Assembly: GCF_036711975.1 (NCBI RefSeq)
Contig: NC_091967.1
Span: 5,146,001-5,210,000, forward strand
Reading direction: 5' to 3'
From: Onthophagus taurus
Lineage: Eukaryota; Arthropoda; Insecta; Coleoptera; Scarabaeidae
Length of the DNA stretch: 64,000 bases
Shown: positions 2,202 to 33,240 of the stretch, piece by piece
How positions within the stretch are numbered: the stretch's first letter is position 1
Layout of the letters: each line of letters opens with the position of its first letter
The notes under the pieces: model-generated
Database searches by the model: none
Seen by the model: the letters and a program-made list of their open reading frames with translations, nothing else
Told to the model about the DNA's origin: nothing
Program-made: the position numbers and the translations under genes

Positions 2202-5200
2202 CTAGAAAAAAAATTAAATAAATACACAAGAAATTTTATGCTAACAATAAAGGACGGATTATGAAAATTTGGTTTATTTTAAACAAAAATTATATTTACT
2301 ACACAAAAATAATACACTCTAACAATAAAATAAACCATGCAATCTTCATCAACGTCTTTAAAAACATTAACCACCATCAAAAAAATAACAACAAACGAAA
2401 CACCAGAACAAGCTACGTTCCTAAAACAACAAAAGCAAAAAAGAACAAAAAATATTTAAACTCAAAAGCGGTAAAATAAAATTACACTACATCAAAATAA
2501 ACAATTTCATCCTCATTGAGTGCTTTCAACGTTTTATTGAATCAAGAAAATGTTAACGTTAACTGTGAGATAGAGACAATAACAAAAATAGACTAAAAAA
2601 CACTTAGATGCGATGAATAGAAAGTTGAGACATTTTTATAAAGACACGTGGACGAGACTAAAAACAGAATTGGGAATAATGAGTGCGACGAAAAGACGCG
2701 GAAGTAAAGAAAAAAAATTGTATTGTTTACCATTTCTCTTAATTAATTAATTAATTAAAAAAAAGAGCGGGGGTGCGGGGTAGCTGGTGACGAAGTGTTA
2801 CCTATTTCTCTGTGGCGATGCTGAGTTTGTTGACGACACGTGTCAGGGCCCTGTTTTCGGCCCTCAGACGTTCATTCTCAGCTTTGAGCTTTTGCAATTG
2901 CTATAAAAAATAATAATTTTGATTTGTGCACCAATAATAAATTGAAAAAAAAAGTGAATCGATTACTCTCATTTTTTTGAGAAATTTTTGTTTCTTAATC
3001 TGTTTTCAATGTTTTTTATAAAAATTTATTTTGTAAAAAAAAAGTAGTCACTAGTCGTAAAAAGGTGGAAAAACAACTTAAGGAGCAAGCGCTAGCAGCA
3101 TGAGATCTACTTAGAAAAAAAGGAATATAAAAAAAGATTATTAAAAAATAAGGTAGAAAAACTATCACTATCAAAAAAAAATTGAAAAAAAAAAATAATA
3201 ATAAAATAGAGAGAGACACGTAAATGTCAAACTTATTCCAATAACATCCATCCAACCATTGAGTGAGAAGGAGGACATAAACAAATGGATTAAAGAAACA
3301 CTTACCTTGAGTTCTTCTTCCATTTCGCTTAACTTTCTTTCCATTGCCCGTTTTTCCCTTTTTTCTAACTCCGATAAAGAGTTTTTACTCGTCTAGAAAA
3401 AAAAGCAGATAATAATTTTTTTTACAAGTAGATTTATTTAAATTAGCTATTAACAAGTCATCAAGCTAATATATCCACTTTTTAAGATGATACCAACAAA
3501 TACAAGAATCATATGAGGAAGGAAATCAGCGAAGTGGAAATAACAATTAGCAGAATACCTGTAGAGTCACCGAAATCATTAATGAAAGAGCTTAAGAAAA
3601 AAACAGACATCATTGTTCTACCAGCAGACTTTATCTGCAAGCCACCATGGTTATGATTTGGATCCAAAGAAAATTTGTACAGGCTTTAGTGGGCACAACC
3701 ATACATTTTCTTCTGTACCAGTTGATGAAGCACCTTACCAAGTTTTCGTCTCCCTTTACAGGTTAATCAACAGGTTAATGGCGAGGGAGACTCCAGGATA
3801 TGTAGTGAGGGAGGAGGTTAAGCTGGATGCAGTAAGGGTGGAAGACAAGAGCAGTGAAGTATGTGGAAAGCATAGAAGGAAGACCCCATTGCAGGATTCT
3901 GGGAGAGTGCTGGAGGGAAATCAAGGAGAGAAGGTTGGAAGATAGGGAAGGATATTATAGGAGAGTGTGATATCCACTAACTGGGATCGACAATAGAAGA
4001 GTGGATAGAGGTGAAATGTGGAGAGAACTGAGGGATAGGGACAGGGATATACAGATGCAGGAAAGAAGGTCACAGATACAGGAAGGGAAATATAAAGTAA
4101 GGTATGGGGAAATAATGGCAGAGGAACTGCCAAAGTATCTGTTGATGGAAGGGGATGAGGAAGGGGAGTGATTGGTGACCAGATTTTGGACGGACCATAT
4201 GAAGAGGTGGTGTAGGTTGTTTAGAGAGGATTAGGAGGCGCTGGAACACATACTGAGAGGGTGTAGTAAGCTGACGGACGATGTGATGGACAGGAAGCAG
4301 GTTTTGGCAGAGGGGGTGAGGGCAAAAGATGGATAGAAAGGAGATAGAGGTTGTGTGTTTGCGGGATTGGATTAGTCTCAAAAAAAGAAACCTCTATCTC
4401 TTATAGTTTCTGAGATACGAAAAAAGTAGGTGCCAGGTCCCGGTTTCTTTTTTCGAGACTAACCCAATCCCGCAAACACCAAACCTCTATCTTCCTTTGG
4501 TTTTTAAGTTATAGCCAAAAAGTCAAATTTTCGTGATTTCAAAAAATGTTCATATTTCGTTTATTTTTGAAATTAGAGAAATGAGGTTGATACGTTCTTA
4601 AGACACTTTTTTAAGTAGAATATACTGCCGTTGATAAATTTTAAAAATATTTGATGATTTTTGAGATACAACACAAAGTTGTATTTTTTTAAATACAAAC
4701 TATACTTGATTATGATGTTAAGAGGCCTACCTAGCTGGCGAAAAATTCGAAACGAGATTCCCTCGTGAACACGCTTAATGCGGCAACACCGCTCCATGTG
4801 TACTCGATCGGGCTGGCGCGCCAGGCCGATGGCGACTAGGACTGTCCGATTGTCGGGTAATTCCCCGACAATCAGCGACGTTGATTTTATTCTTAGTTGA
4901 ATGCATTTGAATACGAGTCGGGGCCGCTTTTTGGAACATAGCTGTTATTGCTAGTATTTTATTATTATCGATTGTTAGTTAAAATTATATATTTTCACGA
5001 AAAGGGATGTTGGTGGATGCCGATCTTATCAGATTCCTCATTATAAAATTGCACAGTATACCAAATTTTATCAGTATATGACAAATCATTGAAATTATTA
5101 CAGATAATCTATACCTTAGCCATTTATTGATTTATACAGGGTGATTTATCAGCTCACCATCAAACTTTGACATATGATAGCTAATCCAATTACAAAAAAA

Positions 5201-26857: not shown

Positions 26858-29800
26858 ATGAGTTACTACCGACCTAAGTGAGTACAACATTTCATCGGCA
26901 TCAATTAAAAACAATAATTTGTGCACGTTTTTTTTTGTTTTTCTCCTTTTCTTGTTACAGCTTTAGCCAAACCGCTGCGATGTCTCGTGGTCGTGGTTAT
27001 TCATCATCAAGAGGTAGTAGTTATCGTGGATCGAGTCGTGGAACTTCGGCATGGGGTTCTAGTCAACGTGGTAGCTACAACAATAGTAGAGGGTCCGGAA
27101 GCGGTGCTCGATTTTCGTCATCGTCATTCAATTCGTCTTTTGACTCTAGATCGAAATATGGGTCGTCGTCTGATCGGTACTCAAGGCCAGATGACTATAG
27201 AAAATCGTCCTATAGACCGGTAAAATAAATAAAATTAAACAAAGATAAAAAAAAAATTTGATATGTCTTTGTGTTACTTGAAGTTTACATGATGTTACTT
27301 TGAGCGTCAAACGAGACTAATATTATTTTATAACTTATTTCCACAAGATGTGTTTATTTGAGTATATCTTACTATAAATAAGTTACACTTTTTTTTTTAA
27401 ATATTTGGTAGCATTTTTGACTTTTTGTTCTAGAGCTTTTTTTCTCTCAGAGCTAGATACTATGTTTATTCCAATTATGATTTGTGCTATATGCACACCA
27501 TTTGTGAATGAGAACTAAATATACAAAATTGTTAACAGACCCTCCCTTTTCCCTATTAATCCATTATATTGAGGATTTACTGTACTACTGAATAAATAGT
27601 ACTTTATATGCTACATTCAGAAATGATGTAATGTTTATACCAAGGTCCATAAAACATATTGTATCAGGGTGGCCAGAGGTAATAGAACGCGTTTTAGGGA
27701 AGGGAGGGGGTTAACGTCACGAGTTACGACGCAGTGGGAGCTACACTGATTATAAATGTTATGTATTTTTGTTTTTTATTATTTAATTACATAATTTTTA
27801 TACTTTAAATAGAATACTTTTCTCTTAAAACGCTTGTAACGTGTGAGGGTTGTTCACTTTTCATAAGTTGATGCTTTATGGACCTTGGTTTATACTTCAA
27901 ACAAAAAGAAAATATTTAAATCAAAAATATTGAGTCAAAATACCTATTAATGATATTACAAGGCGCAAAATAATTGCTAAATACATTTTCTTTTTGTTTT
28001 TATAGGACAGTTCTAGATATTCTGGCAGTGAGCACCGTGGGTCTCCAGACCGTAAACGATTGAGAACTGAGGTATGTAAAGGATTAATAAATGTTCTAAT
28101 ATTTAACAGCACAGGTTGACAAATACTGGGGGCTGATAATCAGACACCTATAGAGGGTACACGATTGATCCCTTCACAAAGAATAAATCAAATAGCGAGA
28201 GAATGAACGCTGATTTAATAGAAATACTAAGAGAGAATGCAACCAAATTTTGACAAAAATGATATTTAAACTTGTTAAAATGTACGTCTCGAGAGATTTT
28301 ATTCGATATAGTAACAAGTAATAAACAGATAGATAATAGATTATACCCAACGATTTATTCATCGATTCTTAATTTTTTTTTAATAAACTGGAACTGTAAG
28401 ATTCGGCGGATTAAAAATAATTTTATTACTTGTTATTTTTTTGGTGATTTTAAAACTGTATGTAAACGTTTTTTTGGATGGTTAAAAGCCATGTTAAACT
28501 CGTATCAAATCAATAATAGATATTTTGTAATACCTGACCTGATAGACGTGAAAAGTCTGAAGCAGGTCAAAATACTTAATTGAATCGAACCTAATAAATA
28601 GAAATAAAATAAAAAAAAAACCTGAATATGCAAATGTGTTATTGTTGTTATCCAGTCTCTTAGCTCGCGCCATGATGGCTACGGTGGATCAGGTGATAGC
28701 TACGGCAGATACGACTCTTCAGGGAGTGCGTCTTACACGGATAGGAGAAGTTTTTCGACCGACAGGAGGCAGTCATCATTTTCTAGGCGCGAAGAATTCC
28801 GAAAGCCGGCTCCGCCCGTTTCCTCTAGCCCTCGCGGGGGTTATAGGGGTCGCATCAGTTCAAGGGGTTCGATGCGATCAAGGCTAAGAGAGAGGCCGAC
28901 GCGCCGCCGTCTCATTGAGAGCTCTTACGTTGTACGGAGACGCACTATCAGACCGTCTGACTACACGAAGAGATTAAAAATGGCCCGTATGAGGAGGTAA
29001 TTAAATACAAAAACCTTTCTAATAATGCCGAAATGAATCAAAAAAATTATATTATATTGGTGTCGATGTCCCGCTTTCCTCTTCTTCTCCCAATATAAAA
29101 AAGGTTTAAATAAAAAAATATTGTTGAGGGTCACTTCTCGATAATAAATTAATAATTGCGACGTTTGGGATATTTTATGGAGGTCGCATCCGAATAATGT
29201 GTAAAATCGACACATAAACAAACAAAAACAAATTTCTTTGAGTTCACAGGGTTTTCAATTTATTTTTATTCAACGACGACTGAAGATTTTCTTTTTTTCA
29301 AGAGTGAATAGTGCAGACGAAAGTTGTCGACCGTTAGATTAAAACGGCAGATGACTTGCTTTTACACCTTCTGCACGTTCAAACGCACTGAATCAATCAG
29401 CCGAATTCACGGAAGAAGAAAATGGAGAAGTTTTTGCTACAAAATGAAATGTTTTCGAGTCACATTGCAAGTTGGTGTTGTTGCACGTGTGACGTGGACT
29501 TATCCACGAAGAATTTATAATTTTTTTTTTATTTGTCTGTTTTAACAGCAAACTATCATTGCAAATTGATAATTTTAAAGCTTTTTCACATTCAATAATT
29601 TCTGAGGCAATTTTAGTTGCTGTTACAACATTTTCCACAGAAGCACTAGCACTTTTAATCCACCGTTCGGTTTTATTTCAATGTTTTTAGCGCCGTTGTT
29701 CGTCGTTCCATTAAAAAACCGAAGAGTGACGATGAAAGCGGAAACGAAAAAGAAGAAGAATCCGAAGAGAAAAAATCTAAACCGGAAGCTGAAGACGCGG

Positions 29801-32800
29801 AAGAGGAGAAACCCGGGAATGACGGTGGTGAAGATGATGACGAGGACGATCGTCAAAGTGAAAAGAAGGAGAAAACACCTAGTAAGAAAATAAAAGATGA
29901 AAAAGATGAGAAAAAAGACAGCGATAGCGGCGATAAATCGCCGTCGCAAAGAAAATACATCAAATTGGTTTGTCCTCATTGCCAAACTAAATGTACTACG
30001 TTTGTAAAGTACAGTTTACATTTGCAAAGTGGGCGTCATATTTCGGCGATGCGTCGCGTTGCTTTGAAACAAAAAGCGATTTTGAGCCGGATGCGTTTGA
30101 TGCAGAGGAACGCCCAAAGAGAACTTGAAAAGACCACAGACGACTTGGCATCAAGAACTAGTTTTTGCCCATTGTGCAAATTGAATTATAAACAGCCTAA
30201 ATTAACCCATCAGGCTTCTGAGTCTCATAAAAACATGAAAAAGTTTTTGATGCCATATTGCAAAACTTGCAAGATAACTTTCAAGAGTCCTATGTTGTAT
30301 GAGAGCCATTGTTGTTCTATTGATCATATTAAGGTTTGTAGATTTTGTTTTTTTTAAACAGCATTAGAAGAGAAAACTCGTCTCTGTGTTACTTGAAGTT
30401 AATTTTTAATTTAACTTTGAGCGTCAAACGGGACGGATATTAAAAAGATCTTGTTTTCCACAAGGTGTATTTCTTTTTATATAAATTCATCTTACTAAAA
30501 ACAAGAAACAATCTTAGAATTATTAAAAAAATTGGAATTTTTATTGATTTTCTAATTTGTTTACAGCGTAAATCTAATTCTGATGACAAATCTGATAAAG
30601 ATGAAGGATCTGGAGCCGATGATAACTTAGAAAACTTTATGACCATTGATTCTGTAGGCGATATGGACGGTAAGAAACGCAACAAATTTTATGTTGCAAT
30701 TGTTGTCCTTGTGTTACTCAATAATAACCTCAACTATTTATTATTGAGCGTCAAACAGGACAAAAATAAACCTATCCAACTTATCCGAAAAATGTTCTCA
30801 TAATAATGGTAACAATTTTACCAAGAGTGGGATACAATTTTATTTCCTATAATAAATTTTTATTGGCCCATTTGTGGTTAAAAATACTATAAAATTCTTG
30901 GCACTATCACTAGAACGAATCTATATAGTAGGTACTATAGTGTTAGTTCTAGTTTTAATACTCCCTTTGTCCCAAATTAGGGTATATATTTCTCTAAAAT
31001 TTATGGATTAAAGAAGGTTTGGAGAATTAACGAGTTTTTATCTATTTAATATAATATAAAGTAATCTAAATTTAATTAATGAAAGAAACTAGAGTTCTGT
31101 TTGTCAAAGGTTAAATCAAATCGATGTTTTGAGGATATGTGCGACTCAACGCAAGTTAAAAGGTCGTACTACATAACGCTGGACGAAGCAGAATCAGAAA
31201 GGCGCTGTAAAAGCAAACGGTTCATAACTAAAGTTATGATTATGGCTGCAGTGGCCATAAACAGTATTTCAATGGCAAAATAGGACTTTGGTCTTTTGTT
31301 TATAAAGAACCTGCTAAAAGAAACGGCAAGAAGCGGGTAGGAGGAGCAATGGTGACCAAAAACATCGAGTCTATCAACGCAGCAGAATGCAAAAAGATGA
31401 TTATTGATAACGTTGTACCAGCCATTAGATCAAAGTTGATTGGTAATTGATGATAATGGATCAAGATAATATAATTCATAAGCAATACCACCATATTTAT
31501 CTCAGTTTCTTATGCACAAGCCCACAATATCAAAATTGACAATCATCTTCATTAATATCTGTTATGATTAAAAAACTGAAAGTGATAGAGAAAAACGTTT
31601 CCCATAAAAATTAATGATAATGAATTAAGATAACATAATCCATAGTCAATGCCACCATAGATATCACCATTTCTTAGGTTCAAGCCAGGAATTCTCAAAA
31701 TATGAAAATTGACAATCACCTGCGTTAAATTCTGTTATAAGTAGAAAATTAAAGGTGATAGAGAAAAACGTTTTCCATAAAAATTAATGATAATGAATCA
31801 AGATAACATAATCCATGGTCAATGCCACCATAGATATCACCATTTCTTAGGTTCAAGCCAGGATTTCTCAAAATTGACAATCATCTATGTTAATTCTGTT
31901 ATAAGCAGAAAATTAAAGGTGATAGGGAAAAACGTTTGCATAAAAATTAATAATAATGAATCAAGATATTATAATTTATAACCAGTGCTACCATAGATAT
32001 CACCATTCATGAATAAAGAAAAGCTTCGCCATGAAGGGCGTTTACATTGAACCAGCTGAATTGTGTTTAAATGTGTAAAATTTTCATTAATGTATCTTTA
32101 AATTAAGTTACAAATTGAATTACTAATTTTGCAAACACAATAAAGCAGTTTCCAAAGTTTTGTACACCATAATTTGAGACAAATTGTAAAGATAAATGTA
32201 TACCATAATTTGGAACAGAGGGAGTAGTTATTAAGCGCTAAATTGTCTATTTTTACGGAAGTAAAAGTAGAACGAGGGCTAGATCTAGAACTAATAACTA
32301 GAACGGAATGACTCCAGTTCTAGGTATAGTGTTAGTTCTAGTTTTACACTTGCACTGTCACTAGAACTAACATTAGACCTAGAACTAGAAATATTTGGGT
32401 TTAGCCTGTCGTCTCAAGACAACTAATCCCGAATGTTTCTAGATTTATCTTCCTAGTGGTCAATACATCCAGGAAAGGTAATGATTCTTTCTATTATTAT
32501 CCACGAATGTATTATAATTATAATTTATTCACCTGTATATAACAAAAAAAAATTTGGCCATTTTATCATTTCTTCTAAATGATGCAAATGGATTAAGTAA
32601 TAATTAATTTTTTGTTTTAGAAGAAGAACGTGAAAAGAAAAAAGAAGGTGAAGACACAACAAAACCAAAAGAAAGTATAAACGTTGGCATAGAACACGTA
32701 AAAAAAGTTGAAGTTTATTATTGCGATTTATGCAGTATGTACTTACCGCGTCGTGAAGAATCAGAAATGCCGAAAAAAATTGCAGAACATTGCAAATTAC

Positions 32801-33240
32801 GCACTCATTTACGACGTTACGTTAGTTACAAAGAAGATAAAGAGTTGGCTAAACGAGCTGAACGTTTACAAAGGCGTGAAACGTTGGAAAAGGAGAAAGA
32901 GAAAGAAAAAGAAGAAATTAAACCCGCTGACGATTCAACAATAAAATCTGAGACTGGTGGAAAAGAAAATGGGGAAGCTAGCTTGAATGAAGATGAAGGT
33001 GATGAAAAGCTTTGGGCTGATGTTGATAAAGACTTGGGGATTATCTTGGCGGAAGCTGAGTCAGGGAATAAAAGTTCTGATGAAGATGAGGATGATTCCT
33101 TTGTGGGTGGGAGATACGATAGATTCAAGACTGGCGAGAAAAATGTTGACGAAAAGAAATTGGCGGATGATGGTAAAGAAGATGAATCGATGGAAACTGA
33201 AGTTAAAGAAGAAGAAACTCCTGAAACTGAAGCTAAATAA
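26858..33240 (+). CDS. Pep: Zinc finger protein on ecdysone puffs (Pep) homologue
   Basis: Nuclear C2H2-like zinc-finger protein; in Drosophila it binds RNA/ssDNA and sits with hnRNPs at active ecdysone-induced loci. Coding exons 26858-26877, 26961-27219, 28006-28071, 28656-28996, 29691-30333, 30567-30669 and 32621-33240 join in frame to 683 residues. Residues 1-230 are RGG/RS/Ser-Tyr-rich low complexity; 240-315 is strongly acidic/basic mixed. Four fingers follow: CPHC...H (about 323-345), CPLC...H (388-409), CKTC...H (421-441) and CDLC...H (512-540), spaced as in Pep. The MTIDSVGDMD and NVGIEHVKKVEVYYC blocks between fingers 3 and 4 are also typical. The tail is acidic. The frame in exon 28656-28996 is fixed by splice phases, not by the longest ORF. 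Three introns host snoRNAs. Confidence 0.88.
26961..27227 (+). CDS. Pep: Pep exon 2, with possible read-through short product
   Basis: The exon codes for an SRG-rich segment (RGRGYSSSRGSSYRGSSRGT) and ends SSYRP at the GTAAAA donor at 27220. If this weak donor is ignored, the frame runs only three more codons to a stop at 27226. Retention of this intron would therefore give a short RG/SY-rich peptide of about 95 residues. The donor is non-ideal (GTAAAAT) and is followed 43 bases on by the first snoRNA. Confidence 0.5.
27263..27390 (+). ncRNA. Box H/ACA snoRNA 1, guide for two 18S rRNA pseudouridines
   Basis: In the Pep intron 27220-28005. Two hairpins with H box ATATTA (27320-27325) between them and ACA at 27385-27387. 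Hairpin 1: outer stem GUCUU/GAGAC, pocket strands GUGUU (27271) and GUCAAA (27306), inner stem CUUGAAGU/ACUUUGAG. These strands pair with 18S UUUGAC-UC-AACAC. Hairpin 2: outer stem AACUUAUUU/AAAUAAGUU, pocket strands UCCAC and ACUA, inner stem AAGAU/AUCUU, pairing with 18S UAGU-UG-GUGGA. Both 3' pocket strands begin exactly 14 nt before the H or ACA box, the rule for this class. Intronic, same strand as host. The 18S segments are quoted from knowledge of the conserved eukaryotic sequence. Confidence 0.92.
27639..27889. mobile_element. Short inverted-repeat element (MITE) in Pep intron
   Basis: 251 bp bounded by ACCAAGGTCCATAAA and its exact inverse, with TTAT directly repeated on both flanks (27635-27638 and 27890-27893). 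It has no coding capacity. A G-rich run (GGGAAGGGAGGGGG) lies inside. It lies in the same intron as snoRNA 1, about 250 bp downstream of it. Confidence 0.7.
28072..28655. other. Pep intron 3 with a strong hairpin
   Basis: AT-rich intron. At 28535-28569, TGACCTG and CAGGTCA pair with an inner AGAC/GTCT stem and a small loop. It is followed by an AAAATA that could pass as an H box, but no second hairpin with ACA was found, so I do not call a snoRNA. Confidence 0.35.
28997..29690. other. Pep intron 4 with paired hairpins
   Basis: Contains GTCACA...TGTGAC (29459-29493) with an inner TGCAA/TTGCA stem, running directly into CGTGGA-CTTA-TCCACG (29493-29508). Further on, AACAGCA and TGCTGTT (29546-29617 region) pair just before an ACA. 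The last pair has the look of an H/ACA 3' hairpin, but no rRNA target or H box was recognised. Confidence 0.3.
30378..30513 (+). ncRNA. Box H/ACA snoRNA 2, paralogue of snoRNA 1
   Basis: In the Pep intron 30334-30566. Hairpin 1: outer stem CGUCUC/GGGACG, pocket strands GUGUU and GUCAAA, inner stem CUUGAAGUUAA/UUAACUUUGAG. H box ATATTA at 30437-30442. Hairpin 2: outer stem CUUGUUUU/AAAACAAG, pocket strands UUCCAC and ACUA, inner stem AAGGUG/CAUCUU. ACA at 30508-30510. Pocket-to-box spacing is 14 nt for both. Pocket strands are the same as in snoRNA 1 while all stems differ by paired changes, so both probably guide the same two 18S sites (UUUGAC-UC-AACAC and UAGU-UG-GUGGA). Confidence 0.92.
30702..30839 (+). 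ncRNA. Box H/ACA snoRNA 3, shared 5' guide but different 3' guide
   Basis: In the Pep intron 30670-32620, starting about 33 bases after the donor. Hairpin 1: outer stem UUGUCCU/AGGACAA, pocket strands GUGUU and GUCAAA, inner stem CUCAAUAAUAA/UUAUUAUUGAG; target 18S UUUGAC-UC-AACAC as in the other two. H box AAATAA at 30764-30769, 14 nt after the pocket. Hairpin 2 is unrelated in sequence: outer stem AUCC/GGAU, pocket strands UCCGA and ACCAA, inner stem AAAA-UGUU/AACA-A-UUUU, ACA at 30834-30836, again 14 nt spacing. Its pocket matches 18S UUGGU-UU-UCGGA. Hairpin 2 folding is less certain because its pocket is large on the 5' side. Confidence 0.85.
30961..32224 (+). mobile_element. Mariner-like relic with Stowaway-type ends and internal tandem repeats
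   Basis: Bounded by CTCCCTTTGTCCCAAATT at left and the inverse of CTCCCTCTGTTCCAAATT at right, with TA on both flanks (30959-30960, 32225-32226). Such ends are typical of plant Stowaway/MLE elements. The plus strand at 31129-31450 reads KRSYYITLDEAESERRCKSK, then KVMIMAAVA, and after a frameshift GLWSFVYKEPAKRNGKKR and VVPAIRSKL, in the order of plant-type mariner transposases. From 31450 to 32010 about four tandem copies of a 162-173 bp unit follow. The element sits inside an older copy of the TAGTTCTAG hairpin repeat. Confidence 0.75.
31445..32010 (+). repeat. Four tandem units of about 165 bp inside the mariner-like relic
   Basis: The phrase GATAATGRATYAAGATAA recurs at about 31451, 31615, 31788 and 31950, each followed by CCACCATAGATATCACC-like text and ATTGACAATCATC. 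The unit starts where the QDN-containing part of the transposase would be, so a piece of transposase sequence has been multiplied. Confidence 0.75.
32226..32420. repeat. TAGTTCTAG hairpin repeat, right half (left half 30895-30958)
   Basis: CTAGAACTAGAA-type inverted units with GGGTTTAGCC at the centre, the same family as 37640-38215. The mariner-like element was inserted into it, so this repeat is the older of the two. Confidence 0.6.

Follow-up and report, generated by a model that had tools for sequence, protein, structure and literature searches.

In the beetle Onthophagus taurus, three introns of the Pep gene (zinc finger protein on ecdysone puffs) each contain one box H/ACA small nucleolar RNA (snoRNA), a class of stable RNA bound to dyskerin, NHP2, NOP10 and GAR1. 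The stretch analysed (the window) comprises 64,000 nucleotides (nt) of contig NC_091967.1, positions 5,146,001 to 5,210,000 of the forward strand, and coordinates below are counted from its first letter unless another contig is named. We are highly confident that the three are paralogous snoRNAs of the RF00543 kind, one per intron, which share a pocket for U1259 of 18S ribosomal RNA (rRNA) and carry a second pocket for U1358 in copies 1 and 2, and for U906 in copy 3. What we observe is their anatomy, the family match, the target segments, the pairing, and a close pocket-1 pattern that occurs in the genome only at the Pep locus. The snoRNA family, already known from flies, is here seen in a new species, with the second pocket of copy 3 perhaps the sole new element; the annotation of O. 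taurus would gain three snoRNA genes:

27264..27390 (start 27263/27264), + strand: H/ACA snoRNA copy 1; 35.7 bits against RF00543, below the cut-off of 48; 74.8 bits with a two-copy model
30378..30513, + strand: H/ACA snoRNA copy 2; RF00543, 58.3 bits (cut-off 48), E 8.5e-8
30703..30839, + strand: H/ACA snoRNA copy 3; RF00543, 53.5 bits (cut-off 48), E 1.1e-6

Copies 2 and 3 lie above the curated cut-off of Rfam family RF00543 (snopsi18S-1377), whose members are the Drosophila Psi18S-1377 snoRNAs, and all three copies align with the model over its full length (1-140 of 140). The consensus pocket 1 (GUGUU, GUCAAA) and pocket 2 (UCCAC, ACUAA) are both those of copies 1 and 2, whereas in the alignments copy 3 shares pocket 1 only. 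A covariance model made from copies 2 and 3 alone recovered copy 1 with E 4.2e-11; its E-values are rough, and its next match (E 0.44) is the opposite strand of copy 2. On this model we assign copy 1 as a paralog of the other two, and not as an Rfam member. The fly series, which we take to run from a to e, suggests by its names that several copies exist in Drosophila too. One of them, Psi18S-1377b, is printed in the accessible part of PMC13228274, where its small-RNA read coverage in S2 cells served to revise its 5' start. Because the consensus has both their pockets and a fly member has reads, copies 1 and 2 look functionally ordinary for the family. We found no mention in the literature of Pep as host of the Drosophila copies: the portion of PMC13228274 available names no host for Psi18S-1377b, '1377' does not occur in what was accessible of PMC4430873 and PMC9997552, and there was no beetle or silkworm H/ACA survey among the best-ranked literature matches.

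Each copy is built as a hairpin, a hinge, a second hairpin and a tail, with an H box (ANANNA) in all three hinges and an ACA box 3 nt from all three inferred 3' ends:

27320..27325, + strand: copy 1 H box, AUAUUA
27385..27387, + strand: copy 1 ACA box
30437..30442, + strand: copy 2 H box, AUAUUA
30508..30510, + strand: copy 2 ACA box
30764..30769, + strand: copy 3 H box, AAAUAA
30834..30836, + strand: copy 3 ACA box

In box H/ACA snoRNAs the distance from pocket to box is 14-16 nt; here it is exactly 14 nt in six of six cases, counted from the first base of the 3' pocket strand. Given frequencies of 0.050 for ANANNA and 0.016 for ACA in five host introns, six such coincidences would arise by chance at about 5e-10, a post-hoc figure. 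An earlier note on this DNA, made from the letters alone, had described three intronic copies between 27263 and 30839 with two hairpins each, both boxes, this same spacing, paired changes in the stems and pocket strands that stay fixed. Its ends were right (27263 or 27264 for the start of copy 1, 30839 for the end of copy 3), as were the boxes and their distances, and both hairpins are present in every copy, with the 5' one of copy 1 weak and the 3' one of copy 3 borderline against shuffles. The fixed pocket strands hold for the first pocket in all three copies, and for the second in copies 1 and 2 only. The paired changes are also there: over 17 pairs of the 5' hairpins, 47 of 48 cells are standard pairs, a level that 2 of 500 shuffles reach, and six pairs are changed on both sides (as many in 2/500 shuffles; for further pair types, 12/500). 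When the partners are slid by one to three columns, pairing falls to 38-54%. With three sequences only, this covariation is modest evidence when taken alone.

As for stability, the whole-copy folds of copies 2 and 3 have z-scores of -4.23 and -4.5, with 0 and 1 of 500 shuffles as low, while copy 1 reaches -1.45 (38/500). Taken per hairpin (5', then 3'), shuffles as low number 198 and 3 of 1000 for copy 1, 1 and 8 for copy 2, and 1 and 53 for copy 3; because of these counts we regard the 5' hairpin of copy 1 as ordinary and the 3' hairpin of copy 3 as borderline.

The pockets and the uridines they are predicted to target are as follows:

27271..27275, + strand: copy 1 pocket 1, 5' strand GUGUU; 3' strand GUCAAA at 27306-27311; predicted target U1259
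27340..27344, + strand: copy 1 pocket 2, 5' strand UCCAC; 3' strand ACUA at 27371-27374; predicted target U1358
30386..30390, + strand: copy 2 pocket 1, 5' strand GUGUU; 3' strand GUCAAA at 30423-30428; predicted target U1259
30457..30461, + strand: copy 2 pocket 2, 5' strand UCCAC; 3' strand ACUAA at 30494-30498; predicted target U1358
30711..30715, + strand: copy 3 pocket 1, 5' strand GUGUU; 3' strand GUCAAA at 30750-30755; predicted target U1259
30784..30788, + strand: copy 3 pocket 2, 5' strand UCCGA; 3' strand ACCAA at 30820-30824; predicted target U906

These numbers refer to the species' own 18S rRNA, a 1927-nt gene on contig C31 (L025:249-2175; RF01960, 1750 bits). The segments UUUGACUCAACAC, UUAGUUGGUGGA and UUGGUUUUCGGA, proposed beforehand as targets on the strength of conserved 18S sequence, with their absence from this species named as counting against the idea, occur there once each, at 1253, 1353 and 901. 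Another 18S copy, C22, which is nearly complete, has all three as well; one more copy, a partial one, contains the first two but not the third, a segment that falls outside its aligned parts. Every pocket pairs with the beetle's own 18S on both sides of a UN, as had been claimed, that of copy 3 pocket 2 only when one predicted stem pair is opened. We scanned the 18S uridines with stacking energies, a pass being three or more pairs on each side. The best uridine was U1259 for pocket 1 of copies 1, 2 and 3 (-17.5, -21.1 and -19.1 kcal/mol), U1358 for pocket 2 of copies 1 and 2 (-16.2 and -17.1 kcal/mol) and U906 for pocket 2 of copy 3 (-18.9 kcal/mol). Shuffled guides did as well in 16, 5 and 15 cases of 2000 each for pocket 1 of copies 1 to 3, and in 6, 12 and 5 of 2000 each for pocket 2; a reversed 18S gave -10.2 kcal/mol at best, against -16.2 to -21.1. 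A coarser score, which counts pairs across 18S, 5.8S and a portion of 28S, again placed U1259, U1358 and U906 first.

What would these sites be? Judged by sequence, U1259, the target of pocket 1 in all copies, corresponds to human U1248, a base that is converted to N1-methyl-N3-aminocarboxypropyl-pseudouridine (m1acp3-pseudouridine). Both this counterpart and the snopsi18S-1377 family are known identities that were absent from the earlier note. We take UUUGACUCAACAC to be the segment that holds human U1248, which presumably lies at the ribosomal P site, and the HinfI site, which we take to be GANTC, fits the GACUC within it. SNORA13 is described in PMC12975130 as a homolog of snR35 of yeast; it directs the pseudouridylation of position 1248 in 18S, with which the formation of m1acp3-pseudouridine begins, and the published assay of this position uses reverse transcription and HinfI. 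From the human counterpart we infer that U1259 may likewise be hypermodified; the chemical mark guided by the three copies would most likely lie in the ribosomal decoding centre. The RF00396 (SNORA13) consensus has the same kind of pocket 1 (GUGUU, GUCAAA), and copy 3 matches it weakly (39.9 bits, cut-off 53), copies 1 and 2 having no listed match; it differs in having no U1358 pocket. We do not class the copies as RF00396 members, and predict that they act like SNORA13 at U1259. Their setting also differs: the human RNA lies in the first intron of EPB41L4A-AS1, a long non-coding RNA (PMC12975130, in the part available), whereas the beetle has three copies in a protein-coding gene. An insect guide of the m1acp3-pseudouridine site would in this way be placed in a beetle, threefold within one such gene. 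U1358 is the site that the second pocket of the RF00543 consensus would target. It lies 99 nt past U1259, the same distance at which 1347 follows 1248 in human 18S, where we assume a pseudouridine that would be the counterpart of U1358; the parts of the papers searched did not confirm it.

Expression, processing, assembly into a ribonucleoprotein and the modification itself are predictions from sequence, and we envisage them as follows. Splicing of the Pep pre-mRNA would release the copies, and trimming would leave RNAs some 127-137 nt long that join the H/ACA core proteins. The common 5' pocket would pair with UUUGAC and AACAC of 18S around U1259, whose conversion to pseudouridine would be the first step toward m1acp3-pseudouridine, while the 3' pocket would pair around U1358 in copies 1 and 2, and around U906 in copy 3.

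The divergent second pocket of copy 3 opens a further scenario. Copy 3 shares pocket 1 with the other two copies but not pocket 2, and we tentatively posit, at just short of an even chance, that it is a re-aimed duplicate: the ancient guide to the U1248 counterpart would have been kept, and the second pocket swapped so as to direct pseudouridine to U906. If true, this would mean an extra ribosome mark in the beetle lineage, set by a paralog within the same host gene. The trio would in any case offer a clean test of how duplicated guides acquire targets, copies 1 and 2 holding the consensus second site and copy 3 pointing elsewhere. We know of no counterpart of U906 among human pseudouridines, and its human number is presumably 829-830; the portions of the papers searched confirmed neither.

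Several results weigh against the reading of three working guides, and they bear on two alternatives. With the upper stem as predicted, pocket 2 of copy 3 has no passing 18S target; the 5+5 pairs at U906 require that one predicted upper-stem A-U pair be opened, at a cost of 1.9 kcal/mol. By the pair-count score, pocket 1 was equalled by 13, 7 and 9 of 2000 shuffled guides in copies 1 to 3, and pocket 2 by 70, 30 and 51. The RNAs compared were 18S, 5.8S and, of 28S, model positions 1 to 1888 of 3401. Could all copies then be real U1259 snoRNAs, with a pocket 2 in copy 3 that is decayed, or that serves another RNA (28S, small nuclear RNA) or none? We find this possible, if somewhat doubtful: pairing at U906 is confined to 5+5 base pairs and borrows one base of the predicted upper stem, the RF00543 consensus carries the U1358 pocket at the very place, and the 3' hairpin is borderline. 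On the other hand, this pocket retains its exact 14-nt spacing to the ACA box, and among the 18S uridines U906 alone passes for it, a result equalled by 5 of 2000 shuffled guides.

The other alternative concerns copy 1, which could be a decaying pseudogene, the RNA being made by copies 2 and 3 only. Against RF00543 it scores E 6.6e-4 when the region alone is searched and 0.011 over the whole window, so that the covariance check proposed earlier bore out copies 2 and 3 and left copy 1 below the cut-off. Its 5' hairpin does not exceed shuffled sequence in stability, and its intron contains an inverted repeat resembling a miniature inverted-repeat transposable element (MITE). We nonetheless judge decay unlikely, for both pockets, both boxes and both spacings are intact, the lower stem of the 5' hairpin is paired throughout despite its changes, and copy 1 was recovered by a model that had not seen it. 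That the copies are chance intronic inverted repeats or copies of mobile elements is barely credible: the host introns do contain other repeats and palindromes, but the close pocket-1 pattern has only three genomic matches, all in one gene, copies 2 and 3 match RF00543 with E 8.5e-8 and 1.1e-6, and the stems covary alongside a fixed first pocket.

The pattern of pocket 1 plus stem base has three matches in 290.8 Mb, all at the Pep locus, and none when reversed, a search that diverged copies would escape. Over the window, a three-copy model found no further member (next match E 0.66), and an Rfam scan at E up to 1 gave no other snoRNA place. A genome-wide RF00543 search, in which 44 of 41757 first-look candidates were scored, returned copies 2 and 3 only. 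Looser patterns were swamped by repeats, with 191 matches against 134 in the reversed control for pocket 1, 324 against 412 for pocket 1 plus H box, and 264 against 85 for the second pocket of copy 3 plus ACA, where many among the matches listed are evident repeats; because only the first places were listed and the matches were unfolded, these three scans are uninformative on other guides. Two pattern matches in viral contigs and four in prokaryote genomes (titled bacterial bins) were taken as chance.

The host gene has the following structure:

26858..33240, + strand: host gene, Pep-like zinc finger protein, 7 coding exons, 683 amino acids
26858-26877, 26961-27219, 28006-28071 and 28656-28996, + strand: coding exons 1-4
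29691-30333, 30567-30669 and 32621-33240, + strand: coding exons 5-7
27220..28005, + strand: copy 1 intron; GT..AG ends, reading frame and annotated protein agree
30334..30566, + strand: copy 2 intron; boundaries match the annotated protein
30670..32620, + strand: copy 3 intron; boundaries match the annotated protein

The snoRNAs start 44, 44 and 33 nt downstream of the 5' splice site in copies 1, 2 and 3. Residues 320-620 of the host protein are 100% identical to the O. taurus zinc finger protein on ecdysone puffs-like isoform X2 (P0001), and because the spliced product differs from it end to end by one residue only, at the last intron junction, the three snoRNA-bearing introns match the annotated protein. 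At that junction (32615-32625) lies a tandem 3' splice acceptor (AGAAG), and the annotated isoform X2 is one glutamate shorter than use of the nearer AG would give. Pfam yielded a single zf-met match below threshold (18.2 against 21.2 bits), and the name Pep is based on homologs, not on Pfam.

The proposal that Pep hosts guides for 18S pseudouridylation is, then, supported at the level of sequence: the Rfam match, the spacing of the boxes, the covariation, the exon boundaries and the beetle's own 18S all speak for it. Its extension, by which an hnRNP-type (heterogeneous nuclear ribonucleoprotein) protein would be tied to ribosome production, is not supported, as hosting shows shared transcription only. 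Three copies in one gene would link snoRNA supply to Pep transcription, if we argue from location, yet location in introns is insufficient for a functional tie between the Pep protein and ribosome production, which we consider quite improbable. In the available portion of PMC13228274, 95% of the snoRNAs expressed in fly cells are intronic in host genes; 73 of 239 fly snoRNA hosts are ribosomal protein genes, and the others named are Uhg genes, lola, Arpc2 and dom. Because intronic snoRNAs are so prevalent there, and their hosts so varied, location speaks for shared transcription alone.

Some minor observations concern the same introns. In that of copy 1, 27633-27895 holds 25-nt inverted repeats, 88% complementary and 213 nt apart, with CCAAGGTCCATAAA near the ends; it looks like a MITE, and may be one reason why copy 1 lies so far from the 3' splice site. 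The copy 3 intron contains a tandem array at 31445-32007 (3.4 copies of a 173-nt unit) and a strong palindrome at 32298-32404, whose GTGTTAGTTCTAG stretch turns up again at other genomic places, among the looser pocket-1 matches; two overlapping open stretches at 31083-31450 give the impression, and only that, of a worn transposase fragment. Elsewhere in the window, 4335-4498 on the minus strand scores below threshold against both MIR2118 (46 of 85 bits) and mir-873 (39.6 of 95), and may be a repeat palindrome. In the ribosomal DNA (rDNA), the 28S of C31 (L026:6284-8023) matches model positions 24-1888 of 3401 only, and a conserved downstream 28S motif had no match in the assembly; the 3' part is either interrupted, masked or missing. 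This small contig, which carries 18S, 5.8S and 28S, also bears a minus-strand gene for 5S rRNA (L027:5740-5858), placed between two rDNA stretches, which points to a possible 5S-45S linkage in O. taurus.

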